Assembly (NCBI GenBank): GCA_017444645.1
Contig: JAFSWG010000022.1
Span: forward strand, 1 to 61,111
Length of the DNA: 61,111 nt
Source: Acholeplasmatales bacterium
GTDB lineage: Bacteria > Bacillota_I > Bacilli_A > Acholeplasmatales > Anaeroplasmataceae
Direction: 5' to 3'
Part shown: in pieces, positions 1,762 to 36,514 of the stretch
How positions within the stretch are numbered: the first letter of the stretch is position 1
Layout of the letters: each line of letters opens with the position of its first letter
The notes under the pieces: generated by a model
Told to the model about the DNA's origin: nothing
The model's input: the letters and a program-made list of their open reading frames with translations, nothing else
The model's database searches: none
Translations under genes and position numbers: made by a program

Positions 1762-3012
1762 ATGAACAAATTAAAAGGTGCAGCTATTATTGGTCAATCA
1801 GGAGGACCAACATCAGTTATTAACGCTTCTGCTGCAGGTGTATTTATTGAAGCATTAAAACAAGAAAATATTACTCGTGTATATGGTGCATGCCATGGTA
1901 TTAAGGGTATATTAAATGAAGAATTCTTTGATATCAATCAAGAAGATATTAAAGAGCTTGAATTATTAAAAACTACTCCATCATCTTCAATTGGATCAGT
2001 TAGATACAAATTAAAAGATTTAAAGCAAGATGATTCTGAATACAAGAAATTATTAGAAGTATTCAAAAAGTATAACATTAGATATTTCTTCTACAATGGT
2101 GGAAATGATTCAATGGATACTTGTAACAAGGTATCTAAATTCTTCAAGGATTCAGGATATGAATGCTTCTGTATGGGAGTACCTAAAACAATTGATAACG
2201 ACTTAGCAGTTACAGATCACTGTCCAGGTTATGCAAGTGCTGCAAAATATGTTGCAACATCATTCATGGAATTAAAGTGCGATGCTACAGTTTACGATAC
2301 ACCAATGGTATCTGTAGTTGAAGTTATGGGTAGAAATGCTGGTTGGTTAACTGCTGCTGCTCAACTTGCAGTATACAAAGGATGTGGACCAGATTTAATC
2401 TACTTACCTGAAATTCCATTTGATCTAGATAAATTCTATGCAGATGTTGAAAAGAAATATAAAGAAAATAATGGTAAGGTTATTATTGCAGTATCTGAAG
2501 GTGTTAAGACTAAAGAAGGTAAATATGTACCTGAATTAGTTGCCGATGTTGCAGTTGACGCATTTGGTCATAAACAAATGGGTGGTACTGCTTCTGTATT
2601 AGCTGATTTATTAAAGAATAGATTAAATGTTAAAGTTAGACCTATCGAATTCTCATTATTACAACGCTGTGCACAACATCTAGCTTCTGCTATCGATGTT
2701 GAAGAAGCATTCAACGCTGGTGTCGAAGCTGTTAAAGCTGCATGCGAAGGTGTAACTGACTATATGATTGGTTTCAAGAGAGTTATGAAGAATGGTAAAT
2801 ACACTTGTGAATATATTAGAATTCCTCTTGAAGAAGTTGCAAATGCTGAAAAGAAAGTTCCACTTGATTGGATTACAAAAGATGGTACAGGCTTAACTCA
2901 AGCTTATGTTGATTATGCATTACCTCTAATTCAAGGCGACTGTAAAGCTCCACTTGAAGATGGCTTACCAAGATTTGCAAAATTAAAGAAAGTATTTGTA
3001 GAAAAAAAATAA
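1762..3012 (+). CDS. pfp: Pyrophosphate-dependent 6-phosphofructokinase
   Basis: Reversible phosphorylation of fructose 6-phosphate using pyrophosphate rather than ATP. The 416-residue protein belongs to the phosphofructokinase fold (GQSGGPTSVIN at the start, MGRNAGWLTAAAQLA). Instead of GGDGT it has GGNDS (113-117), and the catalytic loop is PKTIDND (141-147) with Lys where ATP enzymes have Gly; bulky residues at these two places are the accepted marks of PPi specificity. RBS AAGGAGA is well placed. It stands alone on the plus strand between a divergent pfkA and a bidirectional terminator. Having both enzymes allows an energy-saving, reversible glycolytic step. PPi use is inferred from motifs. 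Confidence 0.9.
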   Translation: MNKLKGAAIIGQSGGPTSVINASAAGVFIEALKQENITRVYGACHGIKGILNEEFFDINQEDIKELELLKTTPSSSIGSVRYKLKDLKQDDSEYKKLLEVFKKYNIRYFFYNGGNDSMDTCNKVSKFFKDSGYECFCMGVPKTIDNDLAVTDHCPGYASAAKYVATSFMELKCDATVYDTPMVSVVEVMGRNAGWLTAAAQLAVYKGCGPDLIYLPEIPFDLDKFYADVEKKYKENNGKVIIAVSEGVKTKEGKYVPELVADVAVDAFGHKQMGGTASVLADLLKNRLNVKVRPIEFSLLQRCAQHLASAIDVEEAFNAGVEAVKAACEGVTDYMIGFKRVMKNGKYTCEYIRIPLEEVANAEKKVPLDWITKDGTGLTQAYVDYALPLIQGDCKAPLEDGLPRFAKLKKVFVEKK

Positions 3013-4426: not shown

Positions 4427-4445
4427 ATATACCGCCTAAAATATA

Positions 4446-4527
4446 AAAAGGATAAGACAACTAGTATTTCAACTAGTCATCTTATCCAGCTTGTCATTTC
4501 TAACGAATAACTCACCCTCCGATGAAC
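4446..4527 (-). promoter_or_regulatory. Structured leader with terminator, probable guanidine-IV (mepA) riboswitch
   Basis: On the minus strand the leader holds a short TTCA/TGA hairpin presenting CGGAGGG, a second hairpin GTTAT-loop-ATGAC, then GGATAAGA...TCTTATCC with an inner ACTAGT palindrome and a U-run (4445-4487), i.e. a transcription terminator immediately before the MATE start codon. The guanidine-IV class is known as an ON switch of this layout ahead of mepA-type MATE genes. I do not remember the consensus well enough to align base by base, so the class is a recognition, not a proof. Confidence 0.6.
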
Positions 4528-4533
4528 GTTGTT

Positions 4534-4562
4534 ATTCTAACACAAGAAAAATTAATAGTCAA
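4534..4562 (-). promoter_or_regulatory. Promoter of the MATE leader RNA
   Basis: TTGACT (4562-4557), 17 bp, TAGAAT (4539-4534). The -35 box touches the stop codon of the upstream thioredoxin reductase gene. Start of transcription is expected near 4527, giving about 100 nt of leader. Confidence 0.75.
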
Positions 4563-5414
4563 CTATTTTAAAATATTCAAATAATTTACTACACTATGAG
4601 CTGCAACATTACCTTCACCTACTGCCTTAGCGTATTGGTAAGGTCTTCCTGTACAATCTCCACATGCGAAAACACCATTTAAATTAGTTTTCATATTTCT
4701 ATCAACTACAATATGTCCCTCAACTGCTTCTAAGCCTGGAACTAATACTGCAGGTGATATAGATGCCTTTAACATAAATATACCATCTGATTCAATAATA
4801 GAATCTTTCAAATGTAATTTCATCTTCTTATTTTCTTTAGTAATCTTATTAGGCATTCCTTTTAATATTTCAACATTAGTAAGATTCATATCTATATCTT
4901 TATATAAACCAATATAATTAACCTTAGAAGCTAAAGAAGCTAAGTATTTAGCTTCATGTTCAAATTCTTTTGATGAAGCTACTACAGTAATTTCTTTACC
5001 TTTATATAAAAATCCATCACATGTAGCACAATATGATACACCTTGTCCTAATAATTCTATTTCACCTTCTACTGGCTTAATAGTTTCTACACCTAAACCT
5101 AAAATAATAGATTTAGCTTCGTATGTATCTTGCCCACAAAGTATAGCATAATGTGTAGATAAATCATATACTCCAGTTACCTGACGCTCTAATATTTCAA
5201 TACCCATATCATTTATTTGTTTAATAAATGCTTCTTTCATTTCTTTACCAGAAACACTAGATAATCCTGGATAATTTCTTATTTTTTCAGCACTATTAAT
5301 TTTATATGACAAGTTCTTAGGACCTATCCATAAAAAGTCTTTATTTAACTGTTTTAGTGTTAATGCAGCTGATATACCTGCCGCACCTGTACCAATAATT
5401 ATCACATCATGCAT
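4563..5414 (-). CDS. Thioredoxin reductase-like flavoprotein lacking the NADPH motif
   Basis: 283-residue FAD protein of the thioredoxin reductase family: FAD loop GTGAAGISAA at the start, redox pair CATC (129-132), C-terminal FAD motif GVFACGDCTG. The NADPH loop normally reading GGGxSA after the redox site is replaced by VVASSKEFEHEA (about 144-155), and the basic residues that bind the NADPH phosphate are not evident. Such loss marks the ferredoxin-dependent flavin thioredoxin reductases known from clostridia and other pyridine-nucleotide-independent members. It is the last gene of the thioredoxin-glutathione peroxidase unit, so its partner is probably the thioredoxin encoded two genes upstream. 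Ferredoxin as donor is inference. Confidence 0.85.
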   Translation of the reverse strand: MHDVIIIGTGAAGISAALTLKQLNKDFLWIGPKNLSYKINSAEKIRNYPGLSSVSGKEMKEAFIKQINDMGIEILERQVTGVYDLSTHYAILCGQDTYEAKSIILGLGVETIKPVEGEIELLGQGVSYCATCDGFLYKGKEITVVASSKEFEHEAKYLASLASKVNYIGLYKDIDMNLTNVEILKGMPNKITKENKKMKLHLKDSIIESDGIFMLKASISPAVLVPGLEAVEGHIVVDRNMKTNLNGVFACGDCTGRPYQYAKAVGEGNVAAHSVVNYLNILK

Positions 5415-5452
5415 AATAGCACCTCCAAATTGTCTTTATTATACTATTTTTT

Positions 5453-5983
5453 TTATTTATTTAAAAGATTTTCAATCTTAGATTTTACATCTGTCATCTT
5501 ATCTACTGGTTCAAATCTTTCAACTAAATTTCCTTCTCTATCAATTAAGAATTTTGTAAAATTCCATCTAACTTCATTATCTTTTGCCTTACTTAGCTTA
5601 TTGATTAAGCCCATCTTTAATCCTTTTCCTTTATATGGAGCATTATCAGTTAAATATCTAAATAAATCACATTTATTTTCTCCAATTACTTCTACCTTCT
5701 TAAATCTTTTAAAAGTAGTATCATATTTTAAAGAACAAAATTGATTGATTTCAGCATCTGTTCCTTTTGCTTGTTCAGCAAATTGGTTACAAGGGAAATC
5801 TAGGATTTCAAAGCCTTTATCCTTTAATTCTCTATAAATAGCTTCAAGCTCTTTATATTGTGGTGTAAATCCACAACCTGTTGCTGTATTAACGATTAAT
5901 AATACCTTTCCTTCATATTCCTTTAAATCTTGTTTAGATCCATCTTGATTTAATACTTCAATTCCATAAAATTTTTCATTCAT
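5453..5983 (-). CDS. Glutathione peroxidase-family thiol peroxidase
   Basis: Reduces H2O2 and organic hydroperoxides; bacterial Cys members usually take electrons from thioredoxin, not glutathione. The 176-residue protein shows the peroxidatic Cys37 in NTATGCGFTPQY, the catalytic Gln71 (CNQFAEQAKGT) and the Trp-Asn pair at 140-141 (VRWNFTKF). The usual CNQFGGQE reads CNQFAEQA here. Cys83 or Cys105 are candidates for the resolving Cys. It sits between trxA (18 bp upstream) and the thioredoxin reductase, so all three parts of a peroxide-reducing chain are in one unit. Confidence 0.93.
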   Translation of the reverse strand: MNEKFYGIEVLNQDGSKQDLKEYEGKVLLIVNTATGCGFTPQYKELEAIYRELKDKGFEILDFPCNQFAEQAKGTDAEINQFCSLKYDTTFKRFKKVEVIGENKCDLFRYLTDNAPYKGKGLKMGLINKLSKAKDNEVRWNFTKFLIDREGNLVERFEPVDKMTDVKSKIENLLNK

Positions 5984-6001
5984 AATTATATTCTCCTCGT
6001 A

Positions 6002-6307
6002 TTACTTTAATAATTCCTTTACTTTATTTTCTGGAATAAATCCTACATTCTTATTTTTTAATTTACCATCTTCAAATACTAATAGTGTAGGTATTGCTTC
6101 TACACCAAATTTGTAAGCAACATCTTCATTATCGTCAATGTTAACCTTTACTACTGTTACATCTGTTAAATCTTCAGATACCTTATCTACAATAGGTGAT
6201 AACATTTTACATGGTCCACACCATACTGCCCAAATATCTACTAATACCTTTTTATTATTATTAACTACTTCGTTTAATTCATTTAATCCATTAATTTCTT
6301 TAACCAT
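6002..6307 (-). CDS. trxA: Thioredoxin
   Basis: 101-residue classical thioredoxin with the active site WCGPCKM (Cys30, Cys33), preceded by VLVDIWAV, the buried Asp region, and with the cis-Pro in VEAIPTLLVF. Cytosolic disulfide reductant, here the presumed electron carrier from the adjacent reductase to the adjacent peroxidase. RBS GGAGGAATAG precedes ATG 6307. First gene of the trxA-gpx-reductase operon, under a promoter whose -10 box lies inside an OhrR-type palindrome. Confidence 0.96.
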   Translation of the reverse strand: MVKEINGLNELNEVVNNNKKVLVDIWAVWCGPCKMLSPIVDKVSEDLTDVTVVKVNIDDNEDVAYKFGVEAIPTLLVFEDGKLKNKNVGFIPENKVKELLK

Positions 6308-6328
6308 ATTACTATTCCTCCAAATTAG

Positions 6329-6385
6329 ATTGTATGCAATTTGTTATTGCAATTACATTGTATACAATTTATTTTAAAATGTCAA
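6329..6385 (-). promoter_or_regulatory. trxA promoter with OhrR-type operators
   Basis: TTGACA (6385-6380), 17 bp, TACAAT (6362-6357). The -10 box is half of the perfect palindrome ATTGTATACAAT (6357-6368); a near copy ATTGTATGCAAT lies 28 bp away (6329-6340). The sequence resembles the known OhrR box of Bacillus. Binding would block RNA polymerase. An ohrR-like gene lies 0.6 kb upstream. Confidence 0.75.
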
Positions 6386-6407
6386 TACTTTTTTTAAAAA
6401 AAATTAA

Positions 6408-6427
6408 AAAAGCTCCTGAGAGCTTTT
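6408..6427 (-). terminator. Intrinsic terminator after the SHOCT gene
   Basis: AAAAGCTC-CTGA-GAGCTTTT stem followed on the minus strand by a T-rich run. Confidence 0.75.
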
Positions 6428-6430
6428 AAA

Positions 6431-6889
6431 TTATCCTAATATTTCTTTTTTCTTTGCATCGAATTCTTCTTTTGTAATAACATTCTTATCTAATAACTCT
6501 TTATATTTTAAAAGTACATCCAAGTTAGAAATATCTTTAGAATTTGACTTTACAGGATTTTTTAATTCATTAATTTCATTTTCTAAAATTGATATTTCTT
6601 CACTAAGCTTTTCTATAGCATATGGAGCTTTTTTCTTTTTTACAAAAAAGACAATCGTAACAACAATCATTAAGTTATTAACTATAATTAATAATGCAAT
6701 TAATACAATATTGAAATATAAATTCTGGAAATTCATGATATTTAAAACCAATAATCCCAAAAATAAAATATCCAATAAAATCCAACTAAATAATAAATAT
6801 GGATATCTATTGTCATTATTAATACTTATGTACTGATTTAGTTCTTCTCTTTTTCTTCTTAATTTTTCTTTCTTCTCAGCTATTGTCAT
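6431..6889 (-). CDS. Two-helix membrane protein with C-terminal SHOCT domain
   Basis: 152 residues. A basic N-terminal helix (about 1-25) leads to two hydrophobic segments near residues 28-49 and 56-83, then a coiled segment and a C-terminal SHOCT motif (LDVLLKYKELLDKNVITKE...), a short helical module found at the ends of many membrane and lipid-binding proteins and thought to aid oligomerisation. It lies 20 bp downstream of the ohrR-like gene on the same strand and may share its transcript. No function can be given beyond membrane location. Confidence 0.75.
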   Translation of the reverse strand: MTIAEKKEKLRRKREELNQYISINNDNRYPYLLFSWILLDILFLGLLVLNIMNFQNLYFNIVLIALLIIVNNLMIVVTIVFFVKKKKAPYAIEKLSEEISILENEINELKNPVKSNSKDISNLDVLLKYKELLDKNVITKEEFDAKKKEILG

Positions 6890-6909
6890 TAGATCACTTC
6901 CAATGTATA

Positions 6910-7350
6910 TTAATTGTTATTATTTAAATTATTTAATATCTTATATAAAACCTTATACAATAACATAGCTTCTTCGTTAGATAATTGAATACAAGAACCC
7001 ATACTTTCAGGAACTGATAAAGCTTTATCTCTTAATTCCATACCTTTATCTGTAATAGTGATTTCTAGATTTCTTTCATCACTATCATTTCTTTTTCTTT
7101 CAATAAAGCCTTTATCTTCTAATTTTTTTAATAATGGAGTTAATGTTCCTGAATCTAAATAAATATATTCACCTAGCTTCTTAACATTCATTGATTTATG
7201 TTCCCACATAACCATCATACATATATATTGTGTATATGTTAAATCTAGTTTATCTAAAAATGGTTTATATTTTCTTGTTATTTCCTTAGCTGCCGCATAT
7301 AAAGGAAAACATAATTGATTTTCTAATTTTAAAGAATCATACTTATCCAT
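6910..7350 (-). CDS. ohrR: OhrR-like MarR-family peroxide sensor
   Basis: 146-residue winged-helix repressor. LENQLCFPLYAAAKEITR with Cys14 matches the reactive Cys of OhrR (Cys15 in Bacillus), and LTYTQYICMMVMWE, DSGTLTPLLKKLE and DERNLEITITDKG match the DNA-binding core. Known OhrR proteins are inactivated when organic hydroperoxides oxidise this Cys, releasing ohr-type peroxidase genes. No ohr gene is seen here; instead ATTGTATACAAT boxes sit on the trxA-gpx promoter and a partial copy sits in this gene's own promoter. I infer that it controls the thioredoxin-peroxidase operon and itself. Confidence 0.85.
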   Translation of the reverse strand: MDKYDSLKLENQLCFPLYAAAKEITRKYKPFLDKLDLTYTQYICMMVMWEHKSMNVKKLGEYIYLDSGTLTPLLKKLEDKGFIERKRNDSDERNLEITITDKGMELRDKALSVPESMGSCIQLSNEEAMLLYKVLYKILNNLNNNN

Positions 7351-36335: not shown

Positions 36336-36448
36336 GGCTTCCTTTGAAAAGAAAGAAAGCCAAAATAGCAGTATGCCATTTCGTAGTGCAAACATTAACG
36401 GTGCTTGCGTAGAGACTTTCCCTCCATATTAGGGTAATTATACGAAAT
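36336..36448 (-). promoter_or_regulatory. Purine riboswitch with terminator (guanine-type)
   Basis: Minus strand: P1 ATTTCGTA (36448-36441) pairs TACGAAAT (36385-36378). In between are L2 AATATGG, J2/3 AGTCTCTAC, L3 CCGTTAA and J3/1 CACTACG. The specificity base (position 74) reads C in ACTACG, as in guanine/hypoxanthine switches; adenine switches have U there. The terminator GGCTTTCTTT...AAAGGAAGCC with T tail lies at 36336-36361. A TATAAT box at 36466-36471 precedes it. Confidence 0.9.
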
Positions 36449-36514
36449 ATAAACCTGACACACGTATTATATATCATTTTTAATATAATTAAAACACATT
36501 TTTTTATAAAGTGT

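Follow-up and report, generated by a model that had tools for sequence, protein, structure and literature searches.

A conserved, terminator-coupled leader RNA before a MATE exporter gene of an Acholeplasmatales bacterium: a probable riboswitch, and probably not one for guanidine

The regulatory element considered here occupies positions 4446-4562 of a 61,111-nucleotide stretch of Acholeplasmatales bacterium DNA (GenBank assembly GCA_017444645.1, contig JAFSWG010000022.1, positions 1 to 61,111; "the window" in what follows). All of its parts are read from the minus strand: a promoter is followed by a 78-nt leader, the leader by a 16-bp intrinsic terminator, and the terminator by the gene of a MATE family exporter (Table 1), whose start codon (4426) lies 18 nt past the T-run. 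A prior interpretation of this DNA (the sequence-only reading) had already described such an arrangement, and in that respect it holds: the coordinates are right, the leader does present CGGAGGG (4521-4515), the terminator stem and T-run do end close to the MATE start, and a transcriptional, terminator-based switch ahead of an exporter gene is well supported.

The leader of the window can be drawn in two ways that exclude each other. In one of these, which is the fold common to the whole family described below, the 5' strand of a helix P1 leads to GGAG, a helix P2 and a hairpin P3 of variable length, followed by the 3' strand of P2, by GGAUAA and by the 3' strand of P1; GGAG and GGAUAA thus face each other across an internal loop. 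The other fold is the terminator. GGAUAA (4487) is the very start of its 5' arm, which also takes in the P1 3' strand, so that aptamer and terminator are, on paper, mutually exclusive. When the growing transcript of the window is folded stepwise, the aptamer is the best fold at lengths of 51-69 nt; once 72 nt are reached, the terminator takes its place. The folding z-score of the leader is -5.4 relative to shuffled sequences, which is mainly owed to the terminator. A conserved, aptamer-like 5'-leader fold that excludes an intrinsic terminator, as transcriptional ON riboswitches in general have, is what is found here.

The same leader precedes the MATE genes of two congeners (loci L002 and L003). 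Over a 51-nt core, the three leaders agree pairwise at 48/51, 46/51 and 48/51 positions, the P3 hairpin showing a one-sided change in both congeners, and a 21-base piece is unchanged in 3 of the 27 genomes of the genus, that of the window included. Between the window and L003, the core is identical at 48/51 positions while the MATE proteins share 297/445 residues and fourfold-degenerate sites agree at 66/115: the leader is conserved far beyond what drift would leave. The DNA upstream of the promoter is unrelated in L002 and L003, yet the distance of 8 nt from the -10 element to the leader element is constant in all three congeners; promoter, leader and MATE gene therefore behave as one unit. 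The promoter had been called strong. What stands of that claim is a σ70-type promoter that agrees with the consensus at 10 of 12 positions and has an extended -10, its spacing kept in the congeners; what does not stand is any inference from the promoter scan by itself, which yields 2 promoters where 2.9 are expected and thus no excess over chance. Relatives of the element supply further support, since a σ70-like promoter lies upstream of 65 of 82 of them (18 of 82 when the upstream DNA is shuffled). The commonest spacing from -10 to GGAG, 13 to 15 nt, is seen at 37 of these 65 promoter-bearing sites, which implies that the RNA usually starts at the element; in the window, transcription would start at approximately position 4527, directly 5' of it.

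Table 1. Parts of the MATE transcription unit in the window
Feature	Position	Strand	Basis or remark
σ70-type promoter: -35 TTGACT (4562-4557), extended -10 TG.TAGAAT (4539-4534)	4534..4562	-	10/12 consensus matches; 17-nt spacer
P1 5' strand, UCAUC	4521..4525	-	covariation
Internal loop 5' side, GGAG, within CGGAGGG	4517..4520	-	alignments
P2 5' strand, GGU	4514..4516	-	covariation
P3 hairpin, GUUAUU ... AAUGAC	4493..4511	-	folding; length and sequence variable in relatives
P2 3' strand, GCU	4488..4490	-	covariation
Internal loop 3' side, GGAUAA; also first 6 nt of terminator 5' arm	4482..4487	-	alignments, terminator search
P1 3' strand, GAUGA; also within terminator 5' arm	4477..4481	-	covariation, terminator search
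Intrinsic terminator: 16-bp stem, 6-nt loop, followed by T-run 4449-4445	4450..4487	-	1 found vs 0.1 expected
Shine-Dalgarno-like AGGCGG of the MATE gene	4432..4437	-	sequence
Regulated gene: MATE family exporter of 447 aa	3083..4426	-	TIGR00797, 162.8 bits (cut-off 147.4); PF01554

How far does the element extend beyond the genus? The pattern CGGAGG ... YGGANAAG recurs in 4 of 80 more distant MATE leaders (Anaerotignum, Clostridium-like and other metagenome-assembled genomes). A covariance model, R1, built from seven sequences, has matches in 17 of the 392 genomes of the window's phylum and in 9 of the 54 of its own family, in 18/43 and 29/244 genomes of two other families, and in 13 of 48 Clostridia genomes; a second model, R2, was run on the phylum to which a Clostridium genome belongs and has matches in 9 of the 398 genomes there. 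These tallies are lower bounds, because no more than about 15 first-look candidates are scored in each genome of the phylum scans, and they include four probable chance matches (L117, L159, L209 and L210, in coding sequence or without a terminator). Of these, L117 and L159 were excluded as chance from the set of 85 sites (the neighbours of L159 were kept), and a covariance match at L144:1081 (E=2.5) was dropped; repeats of loci already counted (L104, L163, L164, L170, L173-L175, L177, L178, L180, L182) were not counted again. The shortest members span about 37 nt (L199, L181, L207). Tandem aptamers ahead of a single gene are seen at L143:1501-1605 (two model matches) and, by eye, at L149 and L203-L205. 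Scans of the relatives with Rfam return only tRNA, a fragment of RNase P and matches due to chance. A search of the literature, including look-ups of MATE in two motif-discovery papers, found no description of the element in open-licence papers, which does not prove its absence from the others. The element thus appears to be a recurring RNA family without an entry in Rfam 15, placed before several unrelated kinds of exporter in gut bacteria.

The fold is borne out by covariation. Among 65 aligned members, 88.7% of P1 and P2 cells are paired (79.1% in shuffles) and 61 cells carry double changes where 17.9 are expected, a number reached in none of 500 shuffles; sliding the register by 1 to 3 columns in any way brings pairing to 52% or less. 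A separate test dispenses with the alignment and anchors each sequence on GGAG and GGANAA (14 of 68 rows could not be so anchored and lie outside it): at least 4 P1 pairs form in 44 of 54 rows, the maximum in 2000 shuffled trials being 38. GGAG is present in all 54 of these rows, as anchoring requires, and the 3' loop strand reads GGATAA in 48 of them. P1 often contains one bulged base, as in TTGCTC paired with GGCAAC. A simple stem finder places a terminator within 150 nt at 79 of 84 sites, against an expectation of 17.2. In 52 of the 84 the terminator 5' arm overlaps the 3' end of the aptamer, as it does in the window, and at the remaining terminator sites the terminator lies just downstream, behind a small hairpin. 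The element is a real, conserved, terminator-coupled regulatory RNA.

The genes that it precedes are mostly, but not exclusively, exporter genes. The first downstream proteins (72, counted from the 85 sites after setting aside contig ends, wrong frames, second aptamers of the same gene and false matches in coding sequence, namely L002, L171, L176, L058, L092, L113, L142, L153, L162, L179, L209, L210 and a duplicate of L143) fall into the following Pfam families: MatE 50, Cytidylate_kin2 5, MFS_1 4, Multi_Drug_Res (SMR) 3, ABC exporter domains 2, two GNAT families with 4 and 2, and glycosyl hydrolase family 1 with 1. The last of these is the sole such enzyme seen, its gene following element and terminator at L110:976-1431. 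At L071, L025, L028, L038 and L098, loci that had been fetched by their MATE gene, a cytidylate-kinase-like gene stands between the element and that MATE gene. At L150, L153-L158 and L160 the element takes a longer form, with one hairpin more, and wherever the next gene is visible it encodes a GNAT-like acetyltransferase; seven GNAT-like proteins encoded after the long form resemble each other by eye. In L058, L092 and other long-form members, the loop of P3 is complementary to that of the next hairpin (CGCA/UGCG, CCUA/UGGG, CCCG/CGGG).

Taken together, these features make a transcriptional ON riboswitch the probable identity of the leader. Its class has no entry in Rfam 15, and its ligand would be a small toxic compound, probably other than guanidine, of the sort exported by multidrug-type pumps. 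Switching would proceed as follows. RNA polymerase would start at about 4527, and P1, the GGAG/GGAUAA loop, P2 and P3 would form a short hairpin in the nascent RNA. The ligand would bind in the internal loop and keep P1 closed. Without it, the GGAUAA-GAUGA strand would quit the aptamer and pair downstream, forming the terminator and stopping transcription before the MATE gene; with it, the terminator could not be completed and the exporter would be made. The layout predicts an ON switch. The conserved structure, the exclusion of one fold by the other on paper and the associated genes are observations; that a ligand binds, that it acts in the ON direction and what chemistry it has are what we infer. 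The artificial FMN (flavin mononucleotide) aptamer selected in vitro has an internal loop with AGGAUAU opposite AGAAGG. The loop of the leader, with GGAUA opposite GGAGG, bears a speculative likeness to it, which suggests at most that such a loop could accommodate a flat ring system and which we take as a hint for the choice of ligands only.

A broader proposal can be put forward tentatively, as somewhat less assured than an even case: that the sites together constitute a new orphan class of riboswitches, widespread in Bacillota, whose one-loop aptamer, sometimes in tandem, would respond directly to a toxic small molecule other than guanidine and switch on MATE, MFS, SMR and ABC exporters as well as a GNAT acetyltransferase. 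A flat heteroaromatic or a cationic compound of the gut would be a candidate ligand.

Several considerations weigh against the riboswitch interpretation or temper the evidence for it. The 65-row alignment was fitted to the model, and its covariation counts lean towards that model; the anchor test escapes this bias yet presupposes GGAG and GGANAA. No terminator could be detected at five of the 84 sites; two of these (L209, L210), like L117 and L159, resemble chance matches in coding DNA. The share of MATE genes is inflated, as a search seeded with the MATE protein supplied all seven founding rows as well as ten matches beside MATE genes in Clostridia; the R1 and R2 genome scans were not gene-seeded. 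Finally, a conserved attenuator that binds a protein would give much of the same pattern. That last alternative, in which an RNA-binding protein antiterminates by binding the internal loop, is unlikely, although a conserved internal loop and an overlapping terminator would suit such a protein well: no family of regulators appears among the first downstream genes, and the element precedes unrelated gene families in many genera.

Is the element instead a guanidine-IV (mepA) riboswitch, as the sequence-only reading had it? In that case guanidinium would make two hairpin loops kiss and the terminator would be blocked. The MATE gene, the terminator platform and the Bacillota host all fit, and in some long-form relatives the P3 loop could pair with the loop after P1. 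Guanidine-IV (mepA, GGAM-1), moreover, is also reported, in the accounts cited, to be an ON switch, and shares with this element a terminator-based mode of action, in Bacillota, ahead of exporter genes of the MATE and SMR types (PMC7736828, PMC12186494). The sequence does not bear the assignment out. The covariance search proposed as a check returned no guanidine-IV match at the gathering threshold or at E<=10, with the presence of a guanidine-IV model in the Rfam copy used being unconfirmed; Rfam 15 gave no match to any guanidine class in leader or relatives, even at E<=10 for the leader, from a library that lacks a positive control for guanidine-IV. SugE/SMR loci were tried as such a control, those of Clostridium yielding guanidine-I only; these loci are scarce in the window's phylum (1/120 and 5/392), with one weak match in 48 Clostridia genomes. 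The published accounts place the essential nucleotides of loop 2 at G62 U63 .. G66 U67 ... A71 G72 in Lactococcus lactis and at G71 U72 .... G77 in Clostridium botulinum, and describe single changes at several of them as abolishing or weakening binding (PMC7736828, PMC11611296). Neither the window leader nor any of the 83 related sites contains the loop-2 set GUNNGUNNNAG, and the window leader also lacks GUNNNNG, the C. botulinum pattern. The architecture also differs. As described by its authors and in a review (PMC12186494), the guanidine-IV aptamer consists of two loops far apart, one of them belonging to the terminator, which a pseudoknot brings together; the terminator stem is part of the aptamer and its 5' arm is not borrowed. 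In the window, contrary to that description, P1 and GGAUAA, the 3' side of the aptamer, are the terminator 5' arm, and both the GGAG/GGAUAA internal loop and a covarying P1 on the terminator arm lie outside guanidine-IV as these sources present it. According to the same descriptions guanidine-IV is most often found before sugE and also before MATE genes, while here MATE accounts for 50 and SMR for 3 of 72 downstream proteins, in a partly MATE-seeded sample. The kissing pair shows no covariation beyond chance: over all rows, 521 of 5000 shuffles do as well, and the kissing-loop model for the long form is not significant. Among 19 scanned Clostridium SMR loci, five, all SugE/Gdx-like, have guanidine-I, whereas two others (L198, L199) have a minimal form of the present element and no guanidine-I match, which argues that guanidine is not its signal. 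The guanidine-IV assignment is accordingly not supported and is very improbable, and the corollary that this cell exports guanidinium is left with nothing to rest on.

Kinship with Gd4v, an orphan motif resembling guanidine-IV, is somewhat less unlikely than the protein antiterminator just considered. The element might be a member or close cousin of that group: MATE and GNAT genes, gut bacteria, a terminator platform and, in some members, an extra terminator hairpin are common to both according to the account of Gd4v (PMC9788692), and in L105 a hairpin does top the terminator. Against this, Gd4v is said there to resemble guanidine-IV extremely closely, while the features described for guanidine-IV are missing here, and the commonest gene of Gd4v encodes a transaminase (PRK07324; GNAT and MATE genes also occur), a domain found in none of the 72 downstream proteins, which come from genomes other than those sampled in the paper. 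That account reports no internal loop of this kind; at the level of the long-form relatives a kinship may exist. Two other readings fare worse. Attenuation of resistance genes in response to drugs is known in other bacteria, and GGAGG is a perfect Shine-Dalgarno core, from which a short open reading frame might be translated, stalled ribosomes preventing termination. A start codon 4-10 nt after GGAGG that opens at least 4 codons exists at only 8 of 82 sites, however; L002 and the window share, by eye, no frame past GUG AGU UAU UC, and GGAUAA and the covariation of P1 are left unexplained. The leader-peptide model was rejected on the count of suitably spaced starts and is highly improbable. Least credible of all is that the hairpin is merely the terminator of the upstream gene: it does lie 75 bp past the stop codon of a thioredoxin-reductase-like gene, but a promoter stands in between, the leader is conserved in L002 and L003 though their upstream DNA differs, and the terminator arm is shared with a covarying second fold.

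Among known switches, the HMP-PP (thiS) riboswitch, as described (PMC6478431), offers a likeness of design: it too is a compact aptamer with a conserved strand embedded in the terminator, P1 and terminator being alternatives. It serves thiazole and thiamin genes, unlike the element considered here, and the leader of the window has no Rfam match to any riboswitch family.

Of the surroundings, the following may be recorded. Directly upstream of the MATE unit lies a run of redox genes on the minus strand (4563-7350), comprising thioredoxin-reductase-like, glutathione-peroxidase-like and thioredoxin-like genes and one for an OhrR-like MarR regulator, some of them assigned by eye. Two genes that look by eye like phosphofructokinase genes stand back to back on opposite strands (570-1523, minus; 1762-3012, plus). 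Elsewhere in the window is a purine riboswitch aptamer (36364-36465, minus; RF00167, 72.2 bits, gathering 37).

It is natural to take a MATE gene with a leader and a terminator as the signature of guanidine; the present case corrects that misreading, for the combination need not signify guanidine. If the element is indeed a riboswitch, the same small RNA fold has come to stand before genes of four unrelated exporter families and, besides, of an acetyltransferase. One natural toxic compound, or a chemically narrow group of them, would then be indicated, which the Bacillota of the gut must pump out or modify. The identity of the ligand would then assign substrates to many "multidrug" exporters that lack a known function, and the element would also supply a compact sensor in which a strand of the aptamer is itself an arm of the terminator.
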